64,000 nucleotides of DNA from Leptobrachium leishanense. Taxonomy: Eukaryota; Chordata; Amphibia; Anura; Megophryidae. The position numbers and the translations under genes are program-made. This document shows positions 20,693 to 61,500 of this stretch, piece after piece; positions within the stretch are counted from its first letter, which is position 1, and each line of letters begins with the position of its first letter. The notes beneath the pieces were generated by a model. It saw only the letters and a program-made list of their open reading frames with translations, was not told where the DNA came from and made no database searches. The stretch is from positions 51,449,422 through 51,513,421 of the forward strand of contig CM019069.1 in assembly GCA_009667805.1 (NCBI GenBank), given 5' to 3'.

Positions 20693-20705
20693 TTAGAAAC
20701 ATAGG

Positions 20706-20998: not shown

Positions 20999-21894
20999 GG
21001 AACCACTGATCTAGGCAATATGCAATACATACACATATTCTCGATAAAAGGGCATATGTGTAAATTACATTTACCGAACCCGGCACAACCTAACCAGATG
21101 GAACTGGATTGAATGCCTTCATTTTACTAGAGTGATTACCTAAAGTGCATTTTCATCTCACAAAGTGGTATTTGTGGAGAATGCACTGGGGATTTGCAGC
21201 TTTTAGGCCATAATGTGTGGAGCAAGAACATTTTTAACCTTACTGTAGGTGTTATGCAAAGACCACTGAAATTTTGGTGCTCTTTCGTTTGGCGCACTTC
21301 AGTGTGATTCGGCAATTCAAGTTCGCCGACCCTGCCGTGAATTCGGCATTCACTGTGGGGTCCCTGAAGTGCACCGTATGGATCCGCCGAATGCCACCGA
21401 TGGGCCGCCAAACGCCTCCGATCAGCCTTTGGAGAAAGCTGACACGCCGCTGAAAAAAGCCGACTAGCAGGTAAAAAAAAAAACATGCAATTTTTAAAAG
21501 GCGTTTTAAATGAAAATAATGCATGGAAATAAAATACAGTCCGGTCCAGAAATATTGGGACATCGACACAATTCTAACATCTTTGGCTCTATACACCACC
21601 ACAATGGAGTTGCAATGAAACAAACACAATGCGCTTTAACTGCAAACTGTCAGCTTTAATTTGAGGGTATGTACATCCAACTCAGGTGAACGGTGTAGGA
21701 TTTACAGCAGTTTGCAGATGTGCCTCCCACTTGTTAAGGGACCAATGGTAATGGGACAATTGGCTTCTCAGCTGTTCCATGGCCAGGTGTGTGATATTCC
21801 CTCATTACCCCAATTACAATGTGCAGATAAAAGGCCCAGAGTTCATTTCAAGTGTGCTATTTGCATTTGGAATCTGTTGCTGTCAACTCTCAAG

Positions 21895-22929
21895 ATGAGA
21901 TCCAAAGAGCTTTCACGATCAGTGAAGCAAGCCATCATTAGGCTGAAGAAACAAAACAAACCCATCAGAGAGATAGCAAGAACATTAGGCGTGGCCAAAA
22001 CTGTTTGGAACATTCTCAAAAAGAAAGAATGCACCGGTGAGCTCACCAACACTAAAATACCCGGGAGACCACGGAAAACAACTGTGGTGGATGACCGAAG
22101 AATTCTTTCCCTGGTGAAGAAAACACCCTTCACAATAGTTGGCCAGATCAAGAACACTCTCCAGGAGGTAGGTGTATGTGTGTCAAAGTAAACAATCAAG
22201 AGAAGACTTCACCAGAGTGAATACAAAGAGTTCACCACAAGATGTAAACCATTGGTGAGCCTCAAAAACAGGAAGGCCAGATTAGAGTTTGCCAAACAAC
22301 ACCTAACAAAGCCTTCACAGTTCTGGAACAAGATCATATGGACAGATGAGACCAAGATCAACTTGTACCAGAGTGATGGGAAGAGAAGAGTATGGAGAAG
22401 GAAAGGAACTGCTCATGATCCTAAGCATACCACCTCATCAGTGAAGCATGGTGGTGGTAGTGTCATGGCTTGGGCATGTATGGCTGCCAATGGAACTGGT
22501 TCTCTTGTATTTATTGATGATGTGACTGCTGACAAAAGCGGCAGGATGAATTCTGAAGTGTTTCGGGCAATATTATCTGCTCACATTCAGCCACATGCTG
22601 CAGAACTCATTGGACGGCTCTTCACAGTGCAGATGGACAATGACCCAAAGCATATTGCAAAAGTAACAAGAGTTTTTGAAGGGACAGAAGTGGAATGTTA
22701 TGCAATGGCCAAGTCAATCACCTGACCTGAATCCCATTGAGCATGCATTTCACTTGCTGAAGACAAAACTGAAAGGAAAATACCCCAAGAACAAGCAGGA
22801 ACTGAAGACAGTTGCAGTAGAGGCCTGGCAGAACATCACCAGGGATGAAACCCAGCGGCTGGTGATGTCTATGCATTCCAGACTTCAGGCTGTGATTGAC
22901 TGCAAAGGATTTGCAACCAAGTATTGCAA
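21895..22929 (+). pseudogene. Tc1-like DD34E transposase, broken
   Basis: It would cut and paste the element at TA sites. The start ATG at 21895 gives MRSKELSRSVKQAIIRLKK, the first helix-turn-helix of the paired-type DNA-binding region. GRPRKTTVV follows, then the catalytic core: first Asp in WTDETK (about 22340), second in MDNDPKH (about 22635), Glu in NPIEHAF (about 22740). Lesions seen: a TAA at 22189-22191 where the sister copy indicates CAA; a 1-nt loss near 22670 that shifts the frame; and the insert at 22925, which falls in the last codons (ATKY-stop) and removes the natural stop. Full length would be about 345 residues. Confidence 0.9.
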
Positions 22930-23498
22930 TGGACAATGGAGTACGTCCTCGGATGCCAGTTTCTGTTCTAATTCGGTGGAGAAATCAGATAGCTGTGCGC
23001 ATAAAGAAATCACACAGACAACGAATACGTCTATGTGGCTTCCAAGCCAATGACTTCTCTGTCTTTATTCGACAATTTACAAGGCTTTTTATGCTACTTC
23101 GCATGTAACGATAACAGGCTGTTGCCCAAAATTCTATTCGTCATTAATATTGTGAAATTATAGACCTTGTTTAATAACAGTTAAAGAAAATAAACCACAG
23201 TGTCTCCGGATGTCCCTTTAGCCGTCAAGGACGTTGGTTACAGGACGTTCTGAGATGTTCCAAAACATTCTCCAAGATGATCTCCAAGATGTTCCAAAAC
23301 ATTCTCTTCTTGATACTTGGAAAAGAAACTACATGTGCGTACAAAAACAATCAGCTAAGATAGCGTTTAAAGAATAATATGCATTAGATTCATAAATCTT
23401 GATTAACCATTTAAACTACTCAAATGAGCATTTTTCTAGGCCTCCTTCTAAGCCTTTGAATATTATAAAAGAGAATATATACATTTCTGTCCACAACA
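22925..23498. mobile_element. Solo-LTR-like insert in the Tc1 transposase
   Basis: Comparison with 59549-61133 defines the insert exactly: the sister reads CAAGTATTAAGAAGG without interruption. The insert begins TGCAATGGACA and ends TGTCCACAACA, so the tips are inverted (TGNNNTGGACA). Flanks GTAT and ATAT may be a 4-bp TSD. It contains AATAAA (about 23188) and no coding frame. A solo LTR fits best. Reading the duplication as TATT would instead give a small DNA element. Confidence 0.45.
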
Positions 23499-24205
23499 AT
23501 ATTAAGAAGGGAAAGTTTGATTTATGATTATTATTCTGTCCCATTACTTTTGGTCCCTTAACAAGTGGGAGGCACATCTGCAAACTGCTGTAAGTCCTAC
23601 ACCGTGCACCTGAGTTGGATGTACATACCCTCAAATTAAAGCTGACAGTCTGCAGTTAAAGCACATTGTGTTTGTTTCATTCCAACTCCATTGTGGTGGT
23701 GTATAGAGCCAAAGATGTTAGAATTGTGTCGATGTCCCAATATTTCTGGACCTGACTGTATAAGGTCCTATGAATAACAGTAAATAGGTCTGTTACAGAA
23801 TAAAAAAAAACTGCCATTTAAAAAGAGAAAAAAATCGGAATCAAACATTTTGCTGAAAAATGCCTAAAAATTCTAAAAAATAAATGAATAAAAAGACTTT
23901 GCTGCAAATGAAAAGAATAAGCGGTTGAATAAAAAATTAATAAAAGCAGGGATTTCTTTTTCATTGCAACAGGATCCGTCTGTTTAAACCTGTCGAACGA
24001 AAGCACTGAAAATCAGGACATTTTGCCAACTTTTCGGTGCTGTTTGGCGGTCCCTAAATAAATGAACCATTACTTCTCTATGGGGAATTTCACTGTCGCC
24101 GAATTGCACCATATTTTGCTGGCAAATCGGCAAATATTGGCGAATTGCCACGAAATTGCACCGTACAGTGAAATAACCCCTTATGTCTCAAGATCAGTCG
24201 TCTTA

Positions 24206-25103
24206 CAGGGTAATTCAAACAGATCCGAATGGCTGGAGAAAGGTAGCCGAATGCTGAAAATCAGCATTTGGTTACCTTTCTTGGCCATTCGGCTATCCAG
24301 AGAGCAGGCAATTCGCCAAATCTTGGCGAATTGCCTGCACATACGGTGCCTGTTCGAGGGCAGTGAATCCCCCATAAAAAAGCAATGCTTCGGCTATTCA
24401 GAGAACACAAACCAGCAGTGAAAGGTTCCCGGAATGCCCTGCCATTCGGTGGTTTCAAGCGGCAGATTTATTCAGGCGAATCCCATAGGCTTCAATGTTA
24501 AAAATATTCCCGTTTTAATTCAATATGTAATAAACCATTCATTCTAAAATTCTGCAGTAAAGAGTCTCTTTATTTATAGAATTTTTTTAGGATATTTTAA
24601 GCATTTTTCTGGATTTAAATTTTTTTTAAAAACAAAATCAGATTTTTTTTTTTAAAAGTTTACTTATTTTTTCCGTAACAGCCCTTTTTATTATCATTCC
24701 CTGGACCTCATATGTAAATTTCAGACATTTTCGCTGAGTAGTTTCTTTGCAAACAGCGTTTCACTTATCAAACATTCAAGCCAACGGTTTTGCTAATTTA
24801 TTCACTTCACTCGTCTGCGGTCTCGGCTTTCTCCGGAGTCTTCGCTGTGTGTGATCGGCTCCTGCTCGGGTATTTCCGGAGTTTTCGGTCGGTTAATCCA
24901 GATGTTTTTGTGGGTTTTCGGCGTGCATTCGCTGGGTTTTGCGGTTAGTTTGCGGCGGCCTTTCCCTGCAATTCGGGGACCCTGTGGTGTTTGCTGAATA
25001 CACCGCAGGGTCACCGAAATGAGATCGGCAACACGAACCGAATTGAAGAGAATGAAAAGTCACTGAACATGCTGTGACTTTCGATTCTCTTTGAATTACC
25101 CTG
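24206..25103. mobile_element. MITE of the CAGGGTTATTCAAAGAGATCCGAAT family (copy 2)
   Basis: Left end CAGGGTAATTCAAACAGATCCG; right end TCGATTCTCTTTGAATTACCCTG. About 900 bp, essentially uninterrupted. It provides the empty-site reference for the L2 insertion in copy 3. The long frames near 24802-25144 on the minus strand are not protein genes. It starts only 23 bp after the end of the nested MITE to its left. Confidence 0.8.
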
Positions 25104-26519
25104 CTAGTCTTTGAAGAAAATCTTAATTTCATTGCACTGTCCACAATTCATGGTTTAGTAAATAACTCCCATTTACTCTTGCTCTCTCCGCCTATTCCAA
25201 ACCAACGTCGGGGGTGATCTGCCTTTTATAAGCACTGTGGAGATGCCTTGTGGAAAGTGCTTGGCTTTTTTTTCCCCCTGTAGAAAACATGGTCCAGATT
25301 CAGACTTTTATAAATGTATTCACTTCTCAATGGAAAATGAAATGATATTCAGAGCTCCTCTGAGAAGCCTTTGTCATGGAAGAGTTACAGTATCTGCTCA
25401 TAAATCGCGAGATGTTTCACCGTAATGTGTTCGGAATCAGCTGGACGTAAGATGTATCCTTGGGATGAATGGCCAGCGATGCCTGGATTTGTTACAATGT
25501 TATGGAACCATTATTAGTCTGAAAATGACTTTAAGGAGACGGAAGATTCAGTAAAACACAAACACTACATTCTATATCTCTGTGTGTCTGTCTGTGTTAA
25601 TGCAACGATCATTTGTATATACTGTATATGTGTATTTGTACGGGTTTTACAGCAATCTTACAAAGAACAGGTGATTTATTGTTCTTCAGTCAAAAAGCAG
25701 CCTTATCTTTCTCATTTGAAAGGACCACATTGTGGGTGAAAAAATGACCTACACAAGATCTCTCAATCTACTGCCTTGAGTGAATGGAAATTCAGATGTT
25801 GTAAGGACACTTTAAACTGAGTTGTGAATTGCAAAACATTGCTTTATATAGGTGAAAGTCTCCAGGCTGTAAATAAAGTATCAAAACTGGAGAATCTCCC
25901 CTCTCCAACTCTGTCACCAAAATTCCCTAATTATATTGATTTCTCATACCCACTGTGCTGCTCAGGACATCCAGCCATGGGCAGTTTGGGGAGATCAAGC
26001 AGGCATTATGGCTACATGGGCCTCTAGAGATATCAAAATATTCCCCAGACTGGCCCTTTGGCCACCTTCTGTCTTGGTTGGCGGAACTGAGGTAGGACCT
26101 ACTAGTCACACCCCACCTGTCCACACGGATAAGAACCTAGTCTGCCATTGGTGTAATGTGGTCACTATGGAAGATGCCCCATGTATGTTTATGTCTCAGA
26201 TGGTTATAGACTTACGTGTTATTAATTATTTCTCTATAAAGGTTCCACATTTCTGGACAATTGGGGGCAGGGCCATATTGAAGAGGAGCGAGTGGACATG
26301 TTATAGTAACTATAGTATTTCTTTTTCTAAAGCTCAACAGTTATCTGGAACAGCTGTCATGATATGTGTACAATGCTTTATGAACGTTCGTTTCATTATT
26401 ATTGCATATTTGACAGTTATTGCCTTGTCTAGGTTTTGCCTGATCTCTTTATCCAGTCCATCTTCCTTCCAAGGTAGAAAGGACCATCTGACTGTGACCA
26501 TGAGATCCTGAGAACCATA
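25104..26519. other. About 1.4 kb without assignable features
   Basis: No transposon ends and no convincing exon. The longest frame, 25936-26511 on the plus strand (191 codons), has no domain I recognise and no conserved composition. I treat it as chance. Confidence 0.45.
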
Positions 26520-26527
26520 GTCTACAG

Positions 26528-26712
26528 CAGTGGTTCTCAACCCTGTCCTCAAGTACCCCTCAGAGGCCAGATTTTAAGGATCACCTTGGGGAAATGCAGA
26601 CTGAATCCTGCAATCACTGAGCAGCAAATCATATCACCTGTGCTGTACTTCAGAAACCTGGCAAACCTGGCCTGTTGTGGGTACAAGAGAGGACCTGGGT
26701 TGAGAACCACTG
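26528..26712. mobile_element. hAT MITE, 185 bp, perfect 8-bp TSD
   Basis: Ends CAGTGGTTCTCAACCCTG and mirrored GGGTTGAGAACCACTG. TSD GTCTACAG is exact at 26520-26527 and 26713-26720. CAGNGGTTCTCAACC ends are typical of several vertebrate hAT families. Confidence 0.92.
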
Positions 26713-26762
26713 GTCTACAGCACTTGGAAGGCCAAAGGTTAACTATCAGCGGGACCCGCTGA

Positions 26763-26903
26763 CACGCCAGGTTTGCCAGATATCTGAAGCACAGCACAGC
26801 ACAGGTGATATGATTTGCTGCTCAGTGATTGCATTTCCCCAAGGTGATCTGCAAAATTTGGCCTGGTTGAGGGTCCTGAGGACAGGTTTGTGAAACACTG
26901 CTT
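26763..26903. mobile_element. hAT MITE remnant, second copy
   Basis: Repeats the right two-thirds of 26528-26712 (GCCAGGTTTGCCAGATATCTG, TTTGCTGCTCAGTGATTG, CCTGAGGACAGGTTTGTGAAACACTG). The left end is missing. It lies about 50 bp from the intact copy. Confidence 0.65.
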
Positions 26904-27008
26904 TAGGATGAGAAGCTGAAAGTAAGTAGGATCAGAGGTCACACACAGACACATATACCAGTGCGGAAAGCAGCGGAGGCCAGAAAGCACCCTAATACTT
27001 CACCCTAA

Positions 27009-27449
27009 GGCTCGTGTCAGACGATCGCAGTGTTCACGTCCGTGTTACGTCACATAAGTACGTTCGTGGTAGCATATAATTGTGTTAAATAGAGCCCCAC
27101 ACACGAAGTACGGACGCACAGAAGTGCGGAGGCATGACAGACGCGGCAAACAGACGAAGGTTAGGCAAGAACGTAATACTGCACAAACAGACGTGCGGAG
27201 TGCGCCACGTCCGCATAGCTTTGTGTGTGAGTGATGGAACCTGGTCAGACGGACTGCATTTATACGTCCATCATTTTTGACGGATAAAATGTTTTTTTCA
27301 TTTTAATTTATTTTCTCTCTTACATCCGTCAAAAATAACGTCAGTCACAAAAACGGACTGTGTGGCCACTACTGCATCTTCCGTCAAAAAGTGCGTCCAT
27401 ACTGCATGGGTGCACAGTCTGTAGAAAACGCGCTCGTCTGACCCTAGCC
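27009..27449. mobile_element. TTAA-type MITE, subfamily A (copy 4)
   Basis: Left GGCTCGTGTCAGACGATCGC, right TCGTCTGACCCTAGCC. Flanks CTAA and TGAC are decayed from TTAA. Interior as in copies 1-3. Confidence 0.8.
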
Positions 27450-27495
27450 TGACTGAATGCACTGGGGTCCACAGGCAGCCAGCCAACTGGATCCA

Positions 27496-27712
27496 CCTAT
27501 AGAAAAGAATAATCTGGTCACCTCAGGCAGGATATGAAGTAAACAGGAGCAGGATTTCTTGCAAAAAGCACAAAGTTTTGGTCCTCTCCAAGGACCTTTT
27601 TCAAGTTTACTGTATAAAGGCCCTTGAACTGAAACATTGCGCTTTTCCCTATAGTCTCTGTTCCTGTTTACTGCATACCCTGGCTGAAGTGACCATTTCC
27701 TTCTTTTCTATA
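27496..27712. mobile_element. Small palindromic element with GAAAC-type motifs
   Basis: The arms mirror each other: GGTCACCTCAGGCAGG...GTAAACAGGAGCAG on the left, CTGTTCCTGTTTAC...GGCTGAAGTGACC on the right. Near the centre, the minus strand reads CTTGAAAAAGG-TCC...GGACC-AAAAC and the plus strand CCTTGAACTGAAACATTGCG. These look like decayed versions of the stem plus GAAA motif in the P1 and P2 palindromic elements. Confidence 0.6.
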
Positions 27713-28549
27713 TATACATACACCAGTGATGTCTGATCATTGAATCCTGTGACTGTGAAGGTCATGGCCATAGCCTGGCAGTCGTCCCTTTCTTGATGAG
27801 GCAATAGGCAGCTGAATGGGAAATCCATCCCTGCTTCTTCTGTTTCTCAACTTGGGATGAGCCGAACACCCGAGTTTGGTTCGCATTCGAACTCGAACTT
27901 TTCAAACACAAACTCAATACAAGTCAATGGGACTCAAAGTTCGATTTTTAGAGTGCCCTCCAAGAGCTAGATATTTGCCATAAAAGGTGTATGGGGGTCC
28001 GGGTAGTGCCCTGGGGGACAGGAAACCAGGACAAAAAGTAAAAAAAAAAAGTTTTTAAAGGGACAGGGAGTTTTCCATGAAATAAGGGTTAAAAATAAAA
28101 ACCAAAAATTCCTTCAAATATCGTGCCTAGGAGGTCCCCATAACCTGCCCGTGAAGTGGCGGATTTCTAGGATGTATAGAAACATTTAAAAACAATGTCC
28201 GGGTCCGGGTAGTGCCCTGGGAGACAGGAAACAAGGACAAAAAGTTTTTTAAAACATACATTTTTAACCCCTTCACTGCTGATGACGTGTGGCACACGTC
28301 CTCAGTTACTCCCGCTATATGCTGAGGAGGACATGTCCCACACGTCATCAGCTTTGCGGGACCACCGGCGGAGATACTCCCCTCTCTATCCGGGGTCCCG
28401 CGGCGTTCTGACTTCAGCGTCCTCAGACGCTGAAGTCAAGCTCCTCCCGACGTAAATGACATCATCACGCCATGCCGGGAGATCGCCTGGAAGGGAGGGG
28501 GGGATCCGTTCGGATCTCTTTCCCTCCCGATCGGGAGGTCCCACAAAAA

Positions 28550-28603
28550 AAGCCAGGCACCGCTTAAAAGGGGAGAGTCTCCCCTTTTAAGCGGTGCCTG
28601 GCT
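28550..28603. repeat. Perfect hairpin
   Basis: AAGCCAGGCACCGCTTAAAA and its exact mirror flank GGGGAGAGTCTCCCC, giving about 25 bp per arm. It sits immediately left of the MITE insertion at 28604. Confidence 0.85.
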
Positions 28604-29016
28604 TTAAGGCTAAGGTCAGACTAACGCAGTATTAACGTGCGTTTAGCCGCACTAAATCACGGCCGTGCTAGCAGCAAATTATGTCCAATGCCGGGCAGCA
28701 TACGAAGAACGGCCGCACAAAAGTGCAGCCGCACAACGCAATGGCAAACTAACGCATTTTTTCGAGAACGTCAAACCGCTAGTACTGACGTACAGAGTGC
28801 GCTGCGTCCGCTAGCTGCATGTGTGCGTGATTAGGAGACGTTAGACGCTGCTAATGTCCGGCCAACATCACGTCCAGACGCAAAAAGTGTTTTATTGATA
28901 ACCGTACAAAATCACGGCCGAAAATGCGCATTGTATGACCGCTATCGCGTATTCCGTGAAAAAATGCATCCATTCGTTCGAATGCACTTTTTCACGGACA
29001 GCGCGAAAATTGCGTT
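28604..29016. mobile_element. TTAA-target MITE, subfamily B (copy 2), right end lost
   Basis: TTAA 28604-28607, then GGCTAAGGTCAGACTAACGC. The interior is the reverse complement of the copy at 3330-3761. Sequence stops matching at about GTTAGGC (29014-29020), before the right TIR. Confidence 0.75.
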
Positions 29017-29427
29017 AGGCATCGGGTCGCACTTCGGCACCTTGTGGCGCCGAAGTGCGGTCTAACTCCGGTGGGGGCCGCCATCTTGGATGGCGGCTCC
29101 ACCCCCGGGTCCCCCCTCACTGCCTGACGTCCTCACGCTTAGTGTGATGACGTCAGATAGCCGGGGAACCCCTAGCTGCCCGGAATCCCCTGGTGGAGAT
29201 ATCGGAGTTCAAATGAACCCCCTATCTCCAGAACCGTGGCAGCTAGGGGGTCATGGAGGGTGTCAATCGAAAGGCCCGAGCACGGCCTTTCGAATGATAC
29301 CCAACATGACCAGGTATAAAGTAAAAAAATAAAAATAAAAAAACATGTATTTTTTTTGTGTGTTATTTTTATTAATGCAGCAATATTGTTCACATTTCAA
29401 TTATAATGTGAACAATGATGCTGCACT

Positions 29428-30143
29428 ATAACGAAATCAATAACCTGGATCGGCGCAAATACTGCTCTCTGGGGTCCTGGAGTCTCGTATATATATATAA
29501 TAAAGAGAGAGACAATAATAGTGCAACACTGTTATATACAATGTACTATGAATATATGTGGTGTAGACCCCACTTACAAGTGTAGAGCCGTACACTGGCT
29601 CTAAGTGGGTCCAGGCATGCGGGTAATTATCTTCAATTTCTTAGGTGACCCCACCTTGCAGCAAAGTTTTTCCTTTTTCTTTATCCGAAGTTTAAATGGT
29701 AGAAAGGAAAACAGGAAGAGAAATCCTTGTGTAGATCCACAAATTAAGGTCACAATATTATGTACAGTTGGAGTTGTACTCACATTCTGAGTACAACTCC
29801 AACTGTACATAATATTGTGACCTTAATTTGTGGATCTACACAAGGATTTCTCTTCCTGTTTTCCTTTCTACCGTTTAAACTTCGGATAAAGAAAAAGGAA
29901 AAACTTTGCTGCAAGGTGGGGGTCACCTAAGAAATTGAAGATAATTACCCGCATGCCTGGACCCACTTAGAGCCAGTGTACGGCTCTACACTTGTAAGTG
30001 GGGTCTACACCACATATATTCATAGTACATTGTATATAACAGTGTTGCACTATTATTGTCTCTCTCTTTATTATATATATATACGAGACTCCAGGACCCC
30101 AGAGAGCAGTATTTGCGCCGATCCAGGTTATTGATTTCGTTAT
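29428..30143. repeat. Near-perfect 716-bp palindrome
   Basis: Arms 29428-29782 and 29788-30143 (355 and 356 nt) with a 5-nt loop, CATTC. I see only about two differences between the arms (one G/C-run length difference near 29650 and 29920, one substitution near 29699). Confidence 0.9.
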
Positions 30144-30246
30144 TGTGTGCAATGGTATAGGGGAAACCACTATATCCTGAGATTGGCTATCTGGGCACCC
30201 CGGTGGTGGATGCATGTTGTGTGGCGCTGCACCATTCGTTGTTTAT
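29429..30246. mobile_element. Palindromic retroelement, family P1 (copy 2), 15-bp TSD
   Basis: Exact 15-bp duplication AATGATGCTGCACTA at 29414-29428 and 30247-30261. The related TTAA element near 56834 shows the uninterrupted target. Most of the insert is a near-perfect palindrome (29428-30143). It is followed by an asymmetric tail of about 100 bp (GGTATAGGGGAAACCAC..., ending GTTGTTTAT) that matches, inverted, the tail of copy 1. Motifs shared with copy 1 include AGAGCCGTACACTGGCTC. No protein frame. The loop of copy 1 with its hammerhead-like motif is absent here. Confidence 0.8.
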
Positions 30247-31201
30247 AATGATGCTGCACTAATGATTTTTTTCTATGGTGTGCGTTTGCTAAAAATCTCA
30301 TAATTCCCCCCCAAAAAATTTAATAAGTCCCCATTTTTAATTTTTTTACAAGCGCACCCATAGAAAATATAACCGCAAATGTTCATGTGATAAAAGGTGA
30401 AAAAAACACTTTACACGCTGCAGATGATTAAAAATTCAAGTTTTATTGCATTTTTTGTTATAATATACAGGCAGAACATGACGTATACATATAAAAATGA
30501 TATATTATGAATCTGCCGAAAAAGAACGATATATAATATGTCTGGGTCGTATAATAAAATGTGGCTTCAAATCGCGTTTAAACATGATGAGCGAAAGCGG
30601 TAAAAATTAGCTCAGCACACAGCGGTGAAATGCCTCAGCAGTGAAAGGGTTAAAGAAACAGTGAGTTTTCCATAAAATAAGGGTTAAAAATAAAAACGAA
30701 AAATGCCTTCAAATATCGTGCCTAGGAGGTCCCCATAACCTGCCTGTGAAGTGGCGGATTTGTAGGATGTATGGAAACATCGCCATCACAGACCCACACA
30801 CGACACCTGGCACTCCCAGTCTGCATACAATGTATCAAATTCATGAGATCTGACTAATTAGAAGCACATGTTATTTCCAAACACTAATTAAACACCTGTT
30901 TACGCCGTTTGAGAGCACAGGTCATTTAGAGGTGAGAATCTTTGCACCTAGGCATTTAGACATTAGTTTTTAATTCAATATCTAATAAACCGTTGCTTAT
31001 AATATTCTGCAGTAAAGATCCTCTTTATTTCTAGATTTTTTAGTATTTTTTAATCATTTTTTATACTTTTTTTAAAAAAAAATAATTTCCGAACTCGAAC
31101 CGAACACGCCAAAAAGTTCGAAGTTCGCGAACTTGCGAACGGCCAAAGTTCGAATCGAACTCCAAACTGATCGAACTGAACAGCTCATCCCTATTCTCAA
31201 C

Positions 31202-45120: not shown

Positions 45121-45269
45121 GACAAAACAAGAAAATTAACAAACCAGTTAAACACACCTGGTCAGGTGTTTCCCGGCGAACGGCCAAGCTACATCATGCC
45201 AGCAGCCGCTCGCCTCATAGGGAGATGAGAAGAACACCGGCGGAGCCTGGGGCCAGCAGAGGATGTGAG

Positions 45270-46925
45270 AGCTGGGGGCAATATATACCGATGTGAGCTG
45301 GGAGCAATACATACCCATGTGAGCTGGGGCAAATATTCCTATGTGAGATGGGGGCAATATATACTCATGTGAGCTGGGGCAAATATACCCATGTGAGCTG
45401 GGGGCAAATATACCCATGTGAGCTGGGGCAAATATACCCATTTGAGCTGGGGCAAATATATCCATGTGAGCTGGGGGCAAATATATCCATGTGAGCTGGG
45501 GCAAATATATCTATGTGAGCTGGGGGCAAATATATACTTATGTGAGCTGGGGCAAATATACCCATGTAAGCTGGGGCAAATATATCCATGTGAGCTGGGG
45601 GCAAATATACCCATGTGAGCTGGGGGAAAATATACCCATGTGAGCTGGGGGCAATATATATCCATGTGAGCTGGGGCAAATATACCCATGTGTGAGCTGG
45701 GGGCAAATATATACTTATGTGAGCTGGGGCAAATATACCCATGTAAGCTGGGGGCAAATATACCCATGTGAGCTGGGGGCAAATATACCCATGTGAGCTG
45801 GGGGCAAATATATCCATGTGAGCTGGGGAAAATATATCTGTGAGCTGGGGGCAATATATCAATATGAGCTGCGGGCAAATATACCCATGTGAGCTGGGGC
45901 AATATATATATCCATGTGAGCTGGGGGCCAATATATATCCATGTGAGCTGGGGGCAAATATACCCATGTGAGCTGTGGGCAAATATATCCATGTGTGCTG
46001 GGGCAAATATATCCATGTGAGCTGGGGGCAAATATATCCATGTGAGCTGGGGCAATATATATATCCATGTGAGCTGGGGGCAAATATATCCAGTGAGCTG
46101 GGGCAATATATCAATGTGAGCTGGGAGCCAATATATATATCCATGTGAGCTGGGGGCAATATATCAATATGAGCTGGGGGCATATATACCCATGTGAGCT
46201 GGGGGCATATATACCCATGTGAGCTGGGGCAAATATACCCATTTGAGCTGGGGCAAATATATCAATGTGAGCTGGGGGCAAATATATCCATGTGAGCTGG
46301 GGCAAATATACCCATGTGAGCTGGTGGGCAAATATACCCATGTGAGCTGGGGCAAATATACCCATTTGAGCTGGGGCAAATATATCCATGTGAGCTGGGG
46401 GCAAATATATCCATGTGAGCTGGGGCAATATATATATCCATGTGAGCTGGGGGCAAATATATCCAGTGAGCTGGGGCAATATCAATGTGATCTGGGAGCC
46501 AATATATATATCTATGTGAGCTGGGGGCAATATATCAATATGAGCTGCAGGCATATATACCCATGTGAGCTGGGGGCAATATATATATATATCCATGTGA
46601 GCTGGGGGCCAATATATACTCATGTGAGCTGGGGCAAATATACCCATATGAGCTGGTGGGCAAATATACCCATGTGAGCTGGTGGGCAAATATACCCATT
46701 TGAGCTGGGGCAAATATATCCATGTGATCTGGGGGCAATATATCAATATAAGCTGTGGGCAAATATACCCATGTGAGCTGGGGCAATATATATATCCATG
46801 TGAGCTGGGGCCAATATATATCCATGTGAGCTGGGGCAAATATACCCATGTGTGAGCTGGGGGCAAATATACCCATGTGAGCTGTGGGCAAATATACCCA
46901 TGTGTGCTGGGGCAAATATATCCAC
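45270..46925. repeat. 1.7-kb minisatellite, unit about 22-26 bp
   Basis: Roughly 70 imperfect units around GTGAGCTGGGGCAAATAT, with common variants GAGCTGGGGGCAA and ATATATATCC. The reverse complement, GCCCCAGCTCACATGG, is the unit that starts the minisatellite at 6771. Several frames on both strands stay open for up to 322 codons because of the repetition; they are not genes. Higher-order structure exists: blocks near 45430-45600 and 46225-46420 repeat the same succession of unit variants. Confidence 0.92.
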
Positions 46926-49800: not shown

Positions 49801-49938
49801 TGTATGTGCATCCTGAGAAGTGGTTATGAACCAGGCAAAAAAGTTAAAGAATGTCGTAATTACACTAAGAGCTAGCTTAGATCTTTTAACATATCATCAA
49901 TGTCCTCCTACTGGACAATGCAGTAACTTGACGACTTA

Positions 49939-50384
49939 GGCTAGGGTCAGACGAACACATTTTTCACGTCTACTTTCAAAAAGTGCGTCCATGCGTCCGG
50001 ACGCACTTTTTCACGGAAGACGCGATAGCGGTCATACGGTGCGCCATTACAGCCGTGATTTTTGACGGAGCTAGAAAAAAAAGAGAAATCTGAGTAACCA
50101 AAGTTTGCGTCTCTGGACGTGATGTTGGCCGGACATTAGCAGCATCTGACGTCTCCTAATCACACACACACGCCGCTATGCCGACGCAGCACACTCTGTG
50201 CGTCAGTACTAGCGGTTCGACATTCTCGAAAAAATGCGTTTGTTTGCCGCTTGCGTTGCACGGCCGAACTTTCGTGCGGCCGCACTTCGTATATTGGCCG
50301 TCATTGGACGTCATTTACTGCTACTACGGCCGTAATAAAGTGCGGCTGAATGCACGTTCGCTCTGCGTTCGTCTGACCCCAGCC
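49939..50384. mobile_element. TTAA-type MITE, subfamily B (copy 3)
   Basis: GGCTAGGGTCAGACGAACAC at the left, TCGTCTGACCCCAGCC at the right. Flanks CTTA and TAAT are decayed. Same orientation as 3330-3761. Confidence 0.82.
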
Positions 50385-51085
50385 TAATACAAAGCTTTAC
50401 ATTCGCAGAGATTTGTAGCACAGACACATGTGACACCTTATCACGTTCCATAGCTATATCTGTAAACATCTGGTGCATGATCTGTTGGCTTTGGTGATGC
50501 AAACAAGATTTGTTCAGTAGAGAGCGTAAAGTTTGCCTAAATATTTGGTTGTTAGTCGTCGAATACATGAGTCAAATTGCGATCATGACCTGCCAAGACA
50601 TTTAAAGAACTGACAGTGGTCAAGTAACAGCTTGACCTCATTTCTATACTTGGTTGGGGATTAATTACATAACTGTTTCTTTTTAGTGATGTTACTTGCA
50701 ACTGTTATGTCAGCGTTTGAGGGAAGCCGGGGTTTTTTGGTGATCCATCTGTCAACCTTTAAGACATGATCCTGTAACACAACCTCAAGCTGTGATCATT
50801 TTTGTTTTTTTGCACAGATCGGGGTGTTATATGAACACATGTGCACAGCTGAAACTTTTGAAACGGTGGGGAGATTTGCTAATACTACTAAAGAGGCTTG
50901 GAATTAACCCTTCTGGGTACTCCACGTCTATTTCTAAGTGACCAAAACCTGAGGGGCTGCACTCACTTAGTAATAATAATAATTATAAAATGTATGTTTA
51001 TTATCACCGTGTATATAGCCCCAACAGTTTCTGAAGAGCTTTGCAATAACCAATGGGAATGAGACAAAATTAAAACAAACATACA
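50385..51085. other. Unassigned, with an L2/SINE-tail remnant at about 50993-51070
   Basis: TATATAGCCCCAACAGTTTC followed by GAGACAAAATTAAAACAAAC resembles the remnant at 45076. Nothing else recognised. Confidence 0.4.
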
Positions 51086-52680: not shown

Positions 52681-52948
52681 ATCTTTTTCTTGTAAATGGT
52701 ACCAGATCGTGCCTGCATCGTCCGATAAATCCAGTTGAGATTGGAAAGATCGCCAGTCTGTTGTAGTCGCAAAAAATCTGAAGTCGCACGATGGTGGTCG
52801 GATGCAGTGCAAGATGGCTGATACACATCCATGTTGTGGGATTGGTCGGACGACAACAGACGATATCGGATGATCTCACTATCGCACGAATATGGACCTC
52901 GAGGTCGCCCAGCTGTATACTCAGTTTTAACAATCTTTTAGTAGTCGG

Positions 52949-53350
52949 TAGGGATATGCGTTTCGGGTTTCGGAATCTCGGAATTTTCACTAAATTTCCC
53001 GATTCGTGTCTTCGGATTCGACCGATTTTCCGAATCGGATCGGACCCGAAAACCGACAGATCCGAAAAGGTTTCCGAGCCGAAACGAAAAATTTTTGGAG
53101 TTTTCGAATGGACTTGAAATGTGTCAATTCTAAATTTATTTTTGCTCTATTCATGATTTCGGTTCCATTCGTGATTTCGGTTCCATTTCGGTAATTCTGG
53201 ACATTGTATATTTAACTATTATCGGTTATATCGCTGATTCTGTAAATTTTGTATTTGTAAATGCGTATCACTTGTTTCTTGTTTCCAATGATCCGATAAT
53301 TCTGTCGATACGATAATTCCTTGGTAATCGGGTCGGATCCGATTCGTCCG
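52949..53350 (+). repeat. Left long inverted end of the 4,974-bp element
   Basis: About 400 bp with repeated TTCGGATTCG, CCGAATCGGATCGG and TTTCGGTTCCATTCG words. Mirrored at about 57530-57922. Such dense subterminal repeats usually bind the mobilising proteins. Confidence 0.7.
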
Positions 53351-53457
53351 CGGGTCGCGCATGCCATGCGCGCGCGTGCGGATGTCATAACTTTATTGAG
53401 CCAGTTTTGACAACTTTTTTGACAGGCCAAAAAAATTGAAATTATTTATAATTTAAC

Positions 53458-55895
53458 ATGGCTGAAAGACAAGACAGAGAGTCCCATTCGGACACCTCCT
53501 CATCTGCTTCCACCCCAGAGACACCACCCAGGAAGAAGCGGGCCAGCAACATGGCATTTGAGGAGATGTTGGAGCTGGTCCGCATCTTTGATAAAAAAGA
53601 TTATGACTGCCGTAAGGGCCCTTACGGCAGGAAGAATAACACCCGCAAGGACCGTATCTTTGACAAGCTCCGAACCTCCATCCTGGAGTTGTTCGGGAAA
53701 GACCGGACGAAGGATGAGCTTCGAAAACGCTGGTCCGATCTGAAGGCACGCGAGCAGGAGCAGCTGAGGCACATCCGTCGCGTCATAGCCAAACGTAAGT
53801 GTCATGTTCTATTGTAAAGCGCTGCGCAGACTGTTGGCGGCGCTATATAAATCCTGTATAATAATAATAATGTGCTTGCATGTGCTAATGTGCACAGAAA
53901 TACGTTAATTAAGGCTGGGGTCAGACTAACGCACTTTTAACGTGCGTTCTGGCGCACTTAATTACGGCCGCACTAGCAGCAAATGACGGGCAATGACGGC
54001 CAATATACGAAGTACGGTCGCACGAAAGTCCGGCCGCGCAACGCAAGTGGAAAATGAACGCATTTTTTTTCGAGAACGCAGAACCGCTAGTACGGACGTA
54101 CAGAGTGCGCTGCGTCCGCTAGCGGTGTGTGTGTGTGATTAGGAGACGTCAGACGCTGCTCATGTCCGGCCAACATAACGTCCAGACGCAAAATGTTTCC
54201 TGGTTTGGATCCGTAAAAAACACGCACGAAAATGCGCATCGTATGACCGTTTTCGCGAATTCCGTGAAAAAATCCGTCAATGCGTTCAGACGCACTTTTT
54301 TACGTTCGCGTGTAAAAATGCTTTCGTTTGACCCTAGCCTTAACTAGTCCTTTTTTCATGCAATGTGATTGTGTATAGCTTTGCGTTTTCACGACTCGTC
54401 TTACATGCATTTTTGCCATAGCTCTTCTTTTTTGGGATTTTACGTATTCGTGAAAATTGTGATATTTGATGTATGTAGATGAAGTTACAATGCTGGATTT
54501 CTTTTGGCACTGTGTGTACTGTAGTGTGCTGGGGGGGGTTGTTGTGATTGAGTGATGCATACGAGATGACCCACAGCTTGCCCAATATTGGCTCCCACCT
54601 GCGCATCAACAAAAATCTCTGCATCTCTGCTAAGTGGTAGGATGGGACATGTAGTTCTTCTGAAAGTGCATCCAAACAGAGCCGCGTTCAATACATCCTA
54701 AGCAGCTGCTGAATTGATGCAGCGCAGCAATTCAGTTTGCTACAGCAGTGTCATTGAACGCTTTAGATGCAAATTTCAAAACAAAATGGCGGATTTCTGT
54801 TGTTTCTGCTATATCCACAGTTTTATTAGCAGAAACTGAAAGTGAAACTGAGGCTGAGGCCATCTATAAAATAACTAAAAGCAGTCAGCACAATGCGTTT
54901 TGTATGCACACAACACAAATAATAGTTTTTAGTGAATAAACGTAATGTTTACTTCTGAAAAAAATATATAATTGAACGGTAATATATGTCTATGTGCAGG
55001 GGAAATAAATAAATAAATATTTTGTGACTAGAACTATGAGATGGGAGTAGTGGTGGGTCAAGCTGGTAGTGCTAGTGGGTAGTGGAGGGGTGTCGCAATA
55101 CTTTCGGCAATATATTGTATAGATATACTATTTTTTCCAGTCTGCATTATTTACGTGTTATTTTTTTGGATTTGGCAGAAGACAGGAAGGCAAAGGCAGC
55201 ATCTGCCCCGGCGGGCACCAGTGCCCCAGTGGAGGAGGAGGAGGGGGAGCCACGGGCGACCACCAGCGCTGGTATATACTGTTTTATTTTGCAACGACTT
55301 TTGGTCAAAAACAGAAACATTTTTTGTTTACTGTATTTTCATTTAATTTTTTTATGTATAGCACAAGAGGAGCAGGAGGAGGAAGAGGAGGAGCCGGAGG
55401 AGGAAGAGGAGGAGCAGGGCGATGGAGAGAGGGAGCCGGAGCCGCAGCAGGAGGCCGCGAGTCCAGGTTTTTTTTTTACTGTTGTATTTTGCATCAACTT
55501 TTGTTAAAAAATAAATCAGTTTTGTTGTTTACTGTATTTTTTATTTCTTTAATTTCTTAGATATAGCACCGGATGAGATGCTGACGGTGGTGGTGGAGGA
55601 GGAGGAGTCGGAGGAGGAGTCGGAGCTTCAGGAGGCCGCCAGCACTGGTATATACTACTGTTATATTTTTTCAAGACTTTCAGTCAAAAATAGAAACCTG
55701 TAAAAAAGTATTTTCCTTCTTTCATTTATTGGATATATAGAAGGAGAAGCCAGACCGGACACTGACAGGTCCAGCGTCAGGATGGCGATCGGCGAGCTAC
55801 GCCTGGCTGGCGCAAACTGCGATGCCATCCAGGAGTTGCTGCAGGAGTTCAGGCAGCATATTAATAACGCCATTGACATCCTGGAGCGGCAGTAG
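53458..55895 (+). CDS. Myb/SANT-like DNA-binding protein, five exons, 258 residues (transposon-borne)
   Basis: Inferred exons: 53458-53794, 55179-55271, 55362-55466, 55561-55647, 55741-55895. Donors include a canonical GTAAGT (intron 1), then GTATAT, GTTTTT and GTATAT; all acceptors are AG. Every intron is phase 1 and the joined frame (777 nt) is open to TAG. Residues 23-28 (PPRKKR) are a likely nuclear signal. About 31-105 form a Myb/SANT-like trihelix domain with FEEMLELVRIF and the signature RKRWSDLK (89-96), as in PIF/Harbinger accessory proteins and MSANTD/TSNARE1-type proteins. 125-205 is very acidic (runs of E). About 220-257 is an amphipathic, leucine-rich helix likely to pair subunits. 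AATAAA signals lie at 55973 and 56033. Expected role: nuclear DNA-binding partner of a transposase. The homology is inferred by eye. Confidence 0.75.
53909..54343. mobile_element. TTAA-target MITE, subfamily B (copy 4), in intron 1
   Basis: TTAA at 53909-53912 and 54340-54343, ends GGCTGGGGTCAGACTAACGC and TTGACCCTAGCC. Opposite orientation to 3330-3761. Being intronic, it leaves the reading frame of the Myb-like gene untouched. Confidence 0.87.
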
Positions 55896-55972
55896 AGACC
55901 AGCCTCCTCCTCCCCTATGAGTATGTTTGTGCCCCTGTTGGGCAGTTTGCCAATGCCATGTGGCATGTTGTA

Positions 55973-56038
55973 AATAAATTTTATATTTTTTCTATATTTT
56001 TTCCTGTTTGTGTGCGTTGCTTTTCCTTACTTAATAAA
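55973..56038 (+). terminator. Polyadenylation signals of the Myb-like gene
   Basis: AATAAA at 55973-55978 and 56033-56038, 78 and 138 nt after the TAG stop. Either could define the transcript end. Confidence 0.5.
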
Positions 56039-56429
56039 TTAATATGTATTGCTTGGTTTCTTTTCCACACTGTTAACATTATATGTACATAAATGTATTG
56101 ACATTTCTATGGACCCTTTGTCATAAATTTGTCAACATATTTGTGGCCATGAATGTGACTGTGCACATTCTACACTTCCTGCCTGGCCAAAAAATGTCAC
56201 ACACTAACACAACCTTGTTGTGCTGCCTTAAGATTTGATTACCGACGTGGCCTGCTTTTGTTAAGCTTAGGCGATGTCACAACAACACAGATTTTTGTCC
56301 ACAGTCACATTCATTGTATAACCAAGAATTTATCAAAAAATATTGATGGCAGCACAGCGTGAAGTCTTCTCCGACACAACCCAACGATCCTCAGTGCGGC
56401 TCAGGTCTAGTTTATTTGTCCCTATTTGC

Positions 56430-57288
56430 AGCTTCACGCAACACCTCCTCCCAGCTATGAGCTCTCTCTCTCCCACCGCTGCCCGCTAAGACGCTGCCCG
56501 CCAACATGGTCACGTCTTTGCAGGAAGACAACAGCGTGGGGGAACGACAGCTGCCGACAGTCCCAAGACCTCGTCACAATGACGTCAGTTCTGGAGTTAA
56601 CCCTAACTGCGACCAATGGTAGAGATAGGGGTTCATTGGAACCCCCTATCTCCCGATCCGCGGCAGCTATCGGTTAATGTTTGGTATCTTTGGATTGACC
56701 AGAGCATGGCCTTTCCAACAATACCAAACATGACAATGTTAAAAATTATAAAAAATTAAAATATAAAAAAAAATAAACAGGTTTTTTGTTTTGTTTTGTT
56801 AATGCAACAATATTGTTCCCATTTCAATTATAATGTGAACAATGATGCTGCACTAAAGATTTTTGTATGGGGTGCGTTTGTTACAAATAGTGTAATTTTC
56901 ACCCAAAAAAATAAGTCCCCATTTCAATTTTTTTTAACAAACGCAACTCATAAAATATAACCGCAAACACTCGCATGTTAAAATGTGGAAAAAAACACTT
57001 TACACTTTGTAAAACAAACATTGAAAATTCTAATTTTATTGCATTTTTTGTTATAATATACAGACAGGACATGACGCATACATATGATAATAATATATTA
57101 TGAATCATCTGCCGAGTCTGCCGGAAAGAACGATATATAACATGTCTGAGTCATATTATAAAAGAAGGCTTCAAAACGCGTTTAAACAAGAGGAGCGAAA
57201 CTGTTAAAAATTAGCTCAGCAGCAGACCGCAGTGCCGCACACAGGCGTGAAGGGAAGCTGCGAAATGCCTCAGCAGCAAAAGGGTTAA
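56430..57288. mobile_element. TTAA element nested in the 4,974-bp hAT-type element
   Basis: The right end CAGCAGCAAAAGGGTTAA (TTAA 57285-57288) and interior blocks (GGTTCATTGGAACCCCCTATCTCC, CAATATTGTTCCCATTTCAATT, TTATAATATACAG) match 28264-30653. The left boundary is uncertain: TTAACCCTAACTGC at 56597 is a candidate, but homology near GACGTCAG (56580) suggests a start further left. It shows the uninterrupted target of the palindrome at 29429. Confidence 0.65.
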
Positions 57289-57930
57289 TTTTTTTTTCTG
57301 TTTTAAATCATTTTATTTGTTGTTTTTTTTTTCGTTTCAGATAATTTTGATCAACAATTTTTCCGTTTTAAAGTCAGACCATTCGGGTCAGTTTAGCATT
57401 TTTTAAATCGTTTTGTTCATTTTTTTTTGTTCCTTGGCTTTCATACCATTTTTTTAATGTGATTAAATAAAGTTGTGAAATGTATATTCATAAGAAAAAA
57501 AGGATCTTTATTTAATAAAAAAAAAATAACGATAGAATCGCCAGAATTATCGTATCGACAGAATGAATTATCGGATCCGAAAAACAAACCAAAAATTTAT
57601 TATAAAAAAATATATAAAGTATAAAAAAAGTAAACCATAGTAGTTTACGTCAAAACGAATAGAGTTAGACACTTTGAAACGAGGAGAACAGACGTTCCGA
57701 AAAAAACGAAAATTTCCGAAATCACGAAAAGTCGATATAAAAAAAGAGCAAAGTGACCCGAAAACACGAAAAATGGTCGATATTCCGAAAAAAAATTTAC
57801 ACGAAAAACGAACCGAACCGAAACGAAACAAAAATCCGTCGAAACGAGCCGAATCGAAAATTTTAAACATCTGAACATATCGAACCGAATCGAACCGAAA
57901 AAAAAATCGGTGCACAAGCCTAGTAGTCGG

Positions 57931-59372: not shown

Positions 59373-59548
59373 TTTGTCTCTTAACAGTGTTTTGAGAGGA
59401 CTTGAGTGCTTTGAACACATTCTTTTGCCCAGGGGTCAAATCTCAAAAAAAGAAATGGGGAAAACCCACCAAGGTTTCTGTCCCCTAATTAGCACGTATC
59501 ATCTCACATGTAGCACAAGCACACACTCAAGTCTGATATATTTATCTA

Positions 59549-61133
59549 CAGTCAGGTCCAGAAATATTGGGACATCGAAACAATTCTAACATCTTTGGCT
59601 CTATACACCACCACAATGGAGTTGGAATGTAACAAACACAATGTGCTTTAACTGCAGACTGTCAGCTTTAATTTGAGGGTATGTACATCCAACTCAGGTG
59701 AACGGTGTAGGACTCACAGCAGTTTGCAGATGTGCCTCCCACTTGTTAAGGGACCAAAGGTAATGGGACAGAATAATAATCATAAATCAAACTTTCCCTT
59801 CTTAATACTTGGTTGCAAATCCTTTGCAGTCAATCACAGCCTGAAGTCTGGAACGCATAGACATCACCAGACGCTGGGTTTCATCCCTGGTGATGCTCTG
59901 CCAGGCCTCTACTGCAACTGTCTTCAGTTCCTGCTTGTTCTTGGGGCATTTTCCCTTCAGTTTTGTCTTCAGCAAGTGAAATGCATGCTCAATGGGATTC
60001 AGGTCAGGTGATTGACTTGGCCATTGCATAACATTCCACTTCTGTCCCTTCAAAAACGCTTTGGTTGCTTTTGCAGTATGCTTTGGGTCATTGTCCATCT
60101 GCACTGTGAAGCGCCGTCCAATGAGTTCTGCAGCATTTGGCTGAATGTGAGCAGATAATATTGCCCGAAACACTTCAGAATTCATCCTGCTGCTTTTGTC
60201 AGCAGTCACATCATCAATAAATACAAGAGAACCAGTTCCATTGGCAGCTATACATGTCCACGCCATGACACTACCATCACCATGCTTCACTGATGAGGTG
60301 GTTTGCTTAGGATCATGAGCAGTTCCTTTCCTTCTCCATACTCTTTTCCCATCACTCTGGTACAAGTTGATCTTGGTCTCATCTGTCCATAGGATCTTGT
60401 TCCAAAACTGTGAAGGCTTTGTTAGGTGTTGTTTGGCAAACTCTAATCTGGCCTTCCTGTTTTTGAGGCTCACCAATGGTTTACATCTTGTGGTGAACCC
60501 TTTGTATTCACTCTGGTGAAGTCTTCTCTTGATTTGACACACATACACCTACCTCCTGGAGAGTGTTCTTGATCTGGCCAACTGTTGTGAAGGGTGTTTT
60601 CTTCACCAGGGAAAGAATTCTTCGGTCATCCACCACAGTTGTTTTCCGTGGTCTCCCAGGTCTTTTGGTGTTGCTGAGCTCACCGGTGCGTTCCTTATTT
60701 TTGAGAATGTTCCAAACAGTTGTTTTGGCCACGCCTGATGTTCTTGGTATCTCTCTGATGGGTTTGTTTTGTTTCTTCAGCCTAATGATGACTTCCTTCA
60801 CTGATAGTGACAGCTCTTTGGATCTCATCTTGAGAGTTGACAGCAACAGATTCAAAATGCAAATAGCACACTTGAAATGAACTCTGGGCCTTTTTTCTGC
60901 ACATTGTAATTGGGGTAATGAGGGAATATCACACACCTGGCCATGGAACAACTGAGAAGCCAATTGTCCCATTACCTTTGGTCCCTTAACATGTGGGAGG
61001 CACATCTGCAAACTGCTGTAAGTCCTACACCATTCCCCTGAATTGGATGTACATACCCTCAAATTAAAGCTGACAGTCTGCAGCCAAAGATGTTAGAATT
61101 GTGTCGATGTCCCAATATTTCTGGACCTGACTG
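59549..61133 (-). mobile_element. Tc1-like transposon, family T1 (copy 2)
   Basis: TA at 59547-59548 and 61134-61135. Ends CAGTCAGGTCCAGAAATATT and mirrored AATATTTCTGGACCTGACTG. 1,585 bp, nearly collinear with 21537-23758 after removing its insert. Confidence 0.93.
59802..60828 (-). pseudogene. Tc1-like DD34E transposase, one frameshift
   Basis: Start at 60828 (MRSKELSLSVKEVIIRLKK). The helix-turn-helix region and GRPRKTTVVDDRRI are intact. The frame breaks near 60530-60540, where comparison with 21537-23758 suggests loss of about 8 nt around GTGTGTCAAATCAAG. Downstream the core is complete: WTDETK, MDNDPKH, NPIEHAFHLLK (D, D34, E), ending FATKY and TAA at 59802-59804. Apart from this break the gene looks intact, and its lesion differs from those of the sister copy. 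Confidence 0.92.
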
Positions 61134-61500
61134 TATATATGTGGATTTTAGAAAAAATATATGATAAATTCTATATTTATTGTGCTTTATCAGGGAAGCA
61201 GATCTTTGAACTCATGAAAAAAGCTTTATAGTGTATGGGACCAATAGGAACTCAGTTCCCCCTGCAAAAATAGTGGAGGAACTGCATTCCCACAAGTTCC
61301 CCCTCGATTTGACCCCTGCTTTTGGCATATGTAGAGTCAACAGCTGGTTATTAGAGGTTATGTGAATCTTATTAAAGAGTGTAGTCATTTATGCTGAATG
61401 TACCTAATAAATGATCATATTGCAACTAACACTACTTTAGCAGGATTAAAAAAAAAGCAAAAAAAATCACTTATAATGAAACAAAGATAAAACAACTTTA

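Follow-up and report, generated by a model that had tools for sequence, protein, structure and literature searches.

A hAT-type transposable unit that carries an intron-bearing Myb/SANT-like gene lies at 52949-57922 of a 64,000-nucleotide stretch of the Leptobrachium leishanense genome (assembly GCA_009667805.1, contig CM019069.1, positions 51,449,422 to 51,513,421 of the forward strand; the whole stretch is called the window below). Our analysis revealed that the unit belongs to a multi-copy family whose members transposed as whole units, that the gene is open in this copy, and that exon 1 has a deficit of amino-acid and frame-breaking changes among the variants shared between copies. We consider, with a probability of roughly 0.55, that the family is a non-autonomous, Ac-like hAT family that receives its transposase in trans and encodes its own Myb/SANT accessory protein. 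An earlier reading of the same DNA, here called the original prediction, had recognised the hAT-type ends and duplication, the open Myb/SANT gene and the lack of a visible transposase, all of which stand; of the three explanations that it entertained, the two-gene hAT lineage and the captured gene stay in contention, and the nested Harbinger-derived insertion is not supported.

In the mechanism that we propose, a hAT transposase from elsewhere in the genome would mobilise the units of this large, recently amplified non-autonomous hAT-type (Ac-like) family in trans. The single intron-bearing gene would yield a DNA-binding protein that combines a Myb/SANT domain, an acidic linker and a C-terminal helix. 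This protein would most likely serve as an accessory, recognising the element's own ends or subterminal DNA, and its C-terminal helix would dimerise or engage the transposase. By analogy, it would play for a hAT-type end a part comparable to that of the Harbinger Myb protein. The supply of transposase in trans, the DNA target and the accessory role of the protein are what we infer from the observations below. The finding of a constrained Myb/SANT gene in a hAT-type family that has no recognised transposase suggests that a non-autonomous element can be sustained by an accessory DNA-binding protein. Why a “parasite of a parasite” retains a gene thereby becomes a question accessible to experiment.

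Ends, target sites and genomic copies

Both the exact 8-bp target site duplication (TSD) and the end sequences proposed in the original prediction were found as given. The duplication GTAGTCGG lies at 52941-52948 and 57923-57930, and these are the only two exact occurrences of the 8-mer in the 64-kb window. On the plus strand the unit starts with TAGGGATATGCG and finishes with GTGCACAAGCCTA. When the window was scanned for hAT-like ends flanked by exact 8-mers, 46 pairs emerged. The first rank was taken by a 371-bp element at 14586-14956, whose end bases match at 11 of 12 positions, and the unit at 52949-57922 ranked second (8 of 12), tied with three pairs that lie in the tandem array at 45269-46924. 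In twenty first-order shuffles, hits with at least 8 matches numbered 11 in total, or approximately 0.5 per shuffle. Taken alone, the window is suggestive of a hAT-type unit and not decisive; the decisive evidence is provided by the TSDs of the other genomic copies.

The searched assembly comprises 3.54 Gb in 4632 contigs. Of the 21588 candidates for the element, 39 were scored, namely this copy and 38 others, and all 38 were retrieved. Most scored copies align to this copy over nearly its full length, barring deletions and nested insertions; a few have only one end or were retrieved incompletely, and exon 1 is not covered by L004, L031 or L032. Both ends were measurable at 27 loci, consisting of 25 of the 39 scored copies together with L042 and L043, two Myb loci that were read to 8 kb and are ordinary full-length members. 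Exact 8-bp TSDs, all mutually different, were present at 24 of these 27 loci; at the remaining three, the flanks match at 6 of 8 positions (L010 and L035) or at 3 of 8 (L034). The gene occupies the same place in copies with different TSDs and moves together with the unit. Divergence from the majority sequence, calculated from noncoding DNA without CpG-type changes, was 0.8-2.1% in all 39 copies, which indicates that the burst was fairly recent and makes many young copies usable for tests. A protein search with Myb exon 1 gave 7294 candidates, the best 150 of which all showed 90-100% identity; 133 of these 150 contain no stop, by our count.

The commonest 16-base ends of the family are TAGGGATGTGCGTTTC and TAGGCTTGTGCACCGA (20 rows each), and the family end pair is TAGGGATGTGCGTTTCGG / TAGGCTTGTGCACCGA. 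The terminal inverted repeats (TIRs) are short and of the type (T/C)A(G/A)(G/A)G, which is the base pattern of hAT TIRs, with C instead of G at position 5 of the right end. Among the TSDs, T at position 2 / A at position 7 was enriched (22/48, p = 0.009; this copy has T2 and not A7), as was G or C at positions 1 and 8 (38/48, p = 2e-7). The pattern nnnTAnnn, which is the Buster form, was not enriched (15/48). The family TSDs agree, as a tendency and not strictly, with the Ac consensus nTnnnnAn, which places hobo in the hAT Ac family according to one report (PMC8961557). In L039, an element of approximately 430 bp made of the family's two ends is inserted in exon 2 with GAAGGCAG on both sides, and family ends can thus move without the Myb gene in cis.

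The unit resembles the hAT Ac family and its Ds-like derivatives in several respects: an 8-bp TSD with the nTnnnnAn tendency, short TIRs of the TAGGG type, clustered subterminal repeats, and an ends-only derivative that has moved. It differs from them in having no recognised BED/hAT transposase and in carrying a Myb/SANT gene with four introns.

The original prediction had described inverted subterminal regions of roughly 400 bp. An inversion is present at the motif level, as a strong motif bias in largely inverted orientation. In the left 400-nt arm, TTCG occurs at 27.5 and CGAA at 15 per kb; in the right arm, CGAA occurs at 52.5 per kb and TTCG at 0, compared with approximately 2.5 in the window. 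Continuous inverted repeats of that length were not confirmed, as the alignment is within the range of shuffled sequence. The best local alignment between the arms is the inner pair 53299-53319 / 57544-57564 (score 49), and at least 1 of 300 shuffles reached 49, with a maximum of 51. In the outer parts of the arms, no continuous inverted homology exceeded that of shuffles (60 of 300 reached the score).

Two other places in the window carry similar termini. The element at 14586-14956 is a hAT-type miniature inverted-repeat transposable element (MITE) with TAGGGATGTGCA ends; the exact 8-bp duplication GTTGGCAC flanks it, and its subterminal DNA is rich in TTTCG. Both ends of the unit at 52949-57922 differ by two mismatches each from TAGGGATGTGCA, the left end of this MITE. 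End likeness to TAGGGATGTGCA was rejected as stand-alone evidence: ten places in the window lie within two mismatches, and four of them are the ends of the two units. Because of the six further places, end likeness counts only together with the duplications. A hAT-like terminus is also present at 31100-31193 (minus-strand reading TAGGGATGAGCTGTTCAGTTCG); within 20000-31190, no partner was recognised that combines a matching start with the same 8-bp flank, even at up to two mismatches in the flank.

The Myb/SANT-like gene and its evolution in the family

The joined five-exon frame is fully open, and its four introns are all in phase 1. The original prediction had counted 258 codons; the frame encodes 256 amino acids and, with the stop codon, comprises 257. 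An open frame alone was rejected as evidence, and the window contains 51 frames of at least 110 amino acids. The exon model is predicted from sequence, and its splice sites were scored with general splice-site frequencies. Among the 278 GTs in the element, donor 1 scored best, donors 2 and 4 reached the 95th percentile and donor 3 the 74th, while the acceptors reached the 92nd to 99th percentile among 273 AGs. The exon-3 donor is weak. Exons 2-4 are alike at their ends, and each is followed by a similar intron, a pattern suggestive of the tandem duplication of an exon together with its intron. The positions of all features are listed in Table 1.

Table 1. Features of the unit at 52949-57922 and of its flanks (positions in the window)
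Feature	Position	Strand	Remark
Whole hAT-type element, member of a multi-copy family	52949-57922	+	4974 bp
TSD, left copy	52941-52948		GTAGTCGG
TSD, right copy	57923-57930		GTAGTCGG
Left TIR	52949-52960	+	TAGGGATATGCG; commonest family form TAGGGATGTGCG
Right TIR	57911-57922	-	minus-strand reading TAGGCTTGTGCA
Left subterminal region	52949-53348		TTCGG-motif-rich; CpG observed/expected 2.2
Right subterminal region	57523-57922		CCGAA-motif-rich; CpG observed/expected 3.1
Inner 21-nt perfect inverted repeat, left arm	53299-53319		approximately 350 nt inside left end
Inner 21-nt perfect inverted repeat, right arm	57544-57564		approximately 350 nt inside right end
Exon 1 (predicted)	53458-53794	+	ATG, serine-rich N-terminus, Myb/SANT-like domain
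MITE in intron 1	53913-54339		TTAA flanks (53909-53912, 54340-54343); not a family component
Exon 2 (predicted)	55179-55271	+	93 nt, phase 1-1
Exon 3 (predicted)	55362-55466	+	105 nt, phase 1-1, acidic
Exon 4 (predicted)	55567-55647	+	81 nt, phase 1-1, acidic; 3' part and next intron resemble those of exons 2 and 3
Exon 5 (predicted)	55741-55895	+	single long C-terminal helix, stop codon
Polyadenylation-type signal	55973-55978	+	78 nt past stop codon; second at 56033
TTAA-bounded repeat in 3' part	56597-57288		found in other copies covering the region; older insertion

The assignment of the gene to the Myb/SANT-like proteins was supported by a Pfam profile search, in which the exon-1 domain matched Myb_DNA-bind_5 (PF13873) above the cut-off (E = 1.4e-5; 25.3 bits against 21.7). 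This was the only Pfam domain in the six frames of this copy at E ≤ 0.05, which agrees with the proposed lack of a visible transposase. The transposase that defines hAT elements, with an RNase-H fold and the C-terminal dimerisation domain PF05699, is not present in these frames, and the unit is therefore filed as a non-autonomous member or a hAT-like unit. The structure model of exon 1 contains three helices at low confidence (mean predicted local distance difference test score, pLDDT, 62.5), and that of exon 5 a single confident helix (pLDDT 92.1). Against solved structures, the best match was not significant (E = 0.069). Relatives of the gene were not found in viral and prokaryote collections, as expected.

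If insertion were followed by nothing but decay, the changes private to a copy would be expected to appear neutral, and the shared ones to bear the mark of selection on the amplifying lineage. With CpG-type changes removed, the ratio of nonsynonymous to synonymous changes (N/S) in exon 1 was 1.03, a neutral-looking value, for private changes, and fell to 0.50, 0.24 and 0.19 for changes shared by at least two, three and four copies (Fisher p = 0.094, 0.0055 and 0.0076). A weaker CpG filter gave p = 0.052 in the two-copy comparison. For exons 1 and 5 together, p was 0.10, 0.040 and 0.040 at the three thresholds.

The lengths of insertions and deletions (indels) were also compared. Multiples of three accounted for 61 of 90 indel events in exons and for 85 of 441 outside exons (p = 8e-19). 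Because exons 2-4 contain GAG repeats, the fair test is exon 1 alone, in which 14 of 24 indels were multiples of three (p = 5e-5). The exon-1 indels common to several copies were all multiples of three (6 of 6, versus 20 of 126 outside exons; p = 4e-5), and some of these six are neighbouring placements of possibly one 6-nt change and hence not fully independent. These comparisons suggest that the Myb part was probably under selection while the family amplified and decayed later. The exon-1 signal appears to favour a working component over a dead passenger, and the Myb gene is probably an integral, functional component of the family.

Variation between copies is in excess around exons 1 and 5. 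With CpG included, the copies differed pairwise by a mean of 2.7% over intron 1 and of 2.6% downstream of the stop codon. The corresponding means were 5.8% for exon 1 and 10.1% for exon 5, with maxima of 16.6 and 22.2. Binned at 40 nt, exon 5 showed 8-11%, dropping to 1.8% just past the stop codon, and the last 40 nt of intron 4 showed 7.1%. Within exon 1, the bins of 53578-53777, which hold most of the Myb domain, showed 4.7-10.4% and those of 53498-53577 showed 1.7-1.9%; the 40 nt upstream of the ATG reached 7.6%. The excess is thus centred on the exons and not strictly confined to them. Shared synonymous changes per site, CpG-type removed, amounted to 0.24 in exon 1 versus 0.036-0.111 in noncoding segments, so protein-level selection does not by itself account for the excess. 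It would be explained by conversion between the copies and a pool of related, more diverged genes, possibly together with diversifying selection in exon 5. Across L001-L039, exons 1 and 5 and their surroundings exceed intron 1 and the 3' part in shared variation by a factor of approximately 2-4, in a mosaic pattern that looks like the outcome of exon-centred gene conversion.

Transposase source and alternative explanations

Genes with hAT domains abound in the genome: a search with PF05699 gave 23420 candidates, and among the best 150 several have open frames of more than 600 amino acids. We read the DNA downstream of the hAT dimerisation domain in two stretches of 700 nt (L044 and L045). In L044, where the domain lies in a 186-residue frame, the stretch holds the end TAGGGATGCACCGAT, preceded by TATCGGT repeats. 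The first eight bases of this end, TAGGGATG, are those of the family's commonest left end, and its GCACCGAT also occurs at the family right end, two bases further in. The subterminal repeats of L044 differ from those of the family. The L044 terminus illustrates the type of end and does not identify the mate of the family.

Several observations weigh against a transposase in trans combined with a functional Myb accessory. No transposase gene with exactly the family's ends was found, a negative that has no end-based genome search result behind it. No transposase-bearing member was recognised among the 39 copies, of which the Pfam scan covered this copy only, and in L045 the 700 nt downstream of the hAT domain contain no end of the L044 kind. 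The ends-only element in L039 shows that mobility does not depend on a Myb gene in cis. The exon-1 selection signal depends on the sharing threshold, and the sharing of variants may partly reflect gene conversion. Exon 5 gave no significant signal (N/S 1.4 for private and 0.81-0.90 for shared changes, p = 0.42-0.55), and exons 2-4 showed no deficit of amino-acid changes, their shared variants being richer in them than the private ones (p = 0.29). Over all exons, 7 of 32 shared indels are not multiples of three; these include the loss of 1 nt at the stop codon (11 copies) and, in exon 5, a gain of 1 nt accompanied by the loss of 1 nt close by (11 copies). In a tally of exon 1 alone, this exon is open in 21 and broken in 13 of the 34 measurable copies, while five copies do not cover it. 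Lastly, a structure-library search with the low-confidence exon-1 model returned one match (E = 4.9) and none of significance, so the trihelix call rests on Pfam and the predicted helices.

Extending the accessory model, we tentatively raise the idea that this is an undescribed kind of hAT family. The unit-encoded Myb/SANT protein would recognise the ends or deliver the transposase, giving a non-autonomous element an accessory factor of its own with which it could outcompete its mates, and the Myb domain and C-terminal helix would be reshuffled by exon-centred gene conversion or diversifying selection. In the open-licence literature, no title or abstract start described a Myb gene in a hAT element, which is not proof of absence in print.

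The strongest competing explanation, which we regard as possible but somewhat improbable, is a two-gene lineage, in which an autonomous hAT carries both transposase and Myb gene and the present family is a deletion derivative that kept the Myb gene. Constraint on the Myb exon during amplification would be expected of such a lineage, Harbinger offers a precedent of two-gene elements, and the variation around exons 1 and 5 suggests exchange with a diverged gene pool, possibly housed in such an element. However, an extra gene was recognised in none of the 38 other copies, whose inserts were not domain-scanned, and the segments between matching blocks mostly carry short flanking duplications or ends of other repeats. 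Moreover, the uniformly high identity of the best 150 Myb matches left no distant class among those scored, and L042 and L043 proved to be ordinary members.

We consider it rather unlikely that a hAT MITE took up a Myb gene, from Harbinger or from the host, and merely amplified it as a passenger. According to a study of fungi, hATs can capture and amplify host genes such as histone H3 (PMC6710886). The introns are retained, which fits capture at the DNA level; in L039 the ends have moved without the gene; and exons 2-5 lack a selection signal. On the other hand, a pure passenger should decay neutrally, whereas the shared variants and indels indicate constraint on the Myb exon. The histone H3 case thus resembles the unit in that a hAT amplified a non-transposase gene, and differs in that, in PMC6710886, all amplified copies except the original are inactivated, while here the Myb exon is constrained among shared variants. 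TET/JBP genes in fungal transposons offer a further likeness, since in that report (PMC12730594) one accessory gene type occurs across hAT, Harbinger and other elements; those hAT families are classified by their encoded transposases, and none was found here.

Assignment to a superfamily other than hAT appears very unlikely. P and KDZ, like hAT, have 8-bp duplications, and the hAT superfamily is defined by a transposase, which the unit does not contain. Duplications of 8-9 bp are also given for Merlin (PMC4482050). In contrast, the ends of the TAGGG...CCTA type, the TTCGG subterminal repeats and the Ac-type bias of the TSDs speak for hAT, as does the DNA adjoining a hAT dimerisation domain in the same genome, which ends in TAGGGATG.

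Insertion of a Harbinger element, or of its Myb gene, into this hAT copy is suggested by Myb/SANT genes being typical of Harbinger and can practically be dismissed: among TWA-flanked inverted pairs that enclose the gene, the best scores 10 of 14, which 11 of 40 shuffles equalled or surpassed, and the gene occupies the same position in copies with different TSDs. A nested Harbinger around the gene was accordingly rejected, with no TWA unit above the shuffle range and with 8-bp instead of 3-bp duplications.

Two reports (PMC9179366 and PMC4482050) agree with the original prediction that Myb/SANT proteins are the usual partners of PIF/Harbinger transposases. The Harbinger Myb protein is reported there to bind TIRs and to enter the nucleus with the transposase (PMC9179366), while the function of the extra open reading frames is called unknown (PMC4482050). 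Like the unit, PIF/Harbinger elements and the two-gene transposons NuwaI/II (PHIS) encode a Myb/SANT-like DNA-binding protein. They have a 3-bp TSD and a DDE transposase, whereas the unit has an 8-bp TSD, hAT-type ends and no DDE gene; a HARBI1-like DDE transposase gene was not found in this copy, where Myb is the only Pfam domain. In the hAT element Hermes, the BED domains of the transposase itself bind the left-end subterminal repeats, and the right-end repeats lie outside the complex (PMC10368747).

Nested repeats and other features of the window

The MITE in intron 1 is private to this copy among the measurable copies. In 33 of the 38 other copies, the sequences that flank it adjoin each other directly and the MITE is absent; the remaining five have the site deleted, uncovered or, in L036, filled by another stretch. 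This TTAA-flanked copy has a GGCTGGGGTCAGAC end and forms one repeat with 3330-3761, 28604-28996 and 49938-50385, the copies being 79-86% alike. The TTAA-bounded repeat in the 3' part of the unit has a second copy in the window, which is split by an insertion at 29429-30246 that reads as a long palindrome.

The segments 21534-23761 and 59547-61139 share stretches of 95-98% identity in opposite orientation and contain long open transposase-like frames; we take them to be Tc1-like elements. Their frames, and the LINE-type (long interspersed nuclear element) frame mentioned below, have a vertebrate and probably amphibian look. Tandem arrays occupy 6786-7196 and 45269-46924, with units CATGGATTTGCCCCAGCT (18 bp) and GAGCTGGGGGCAAATATACCCATGT (25 bp) and a mutual match of approximately 67-72%. 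A search against Rfam gave no match at the gathering score in the window. On the minus strand, 19193-20692 holds a frame of 500 residues, presumably a reverse transcriptase of the LINE type.

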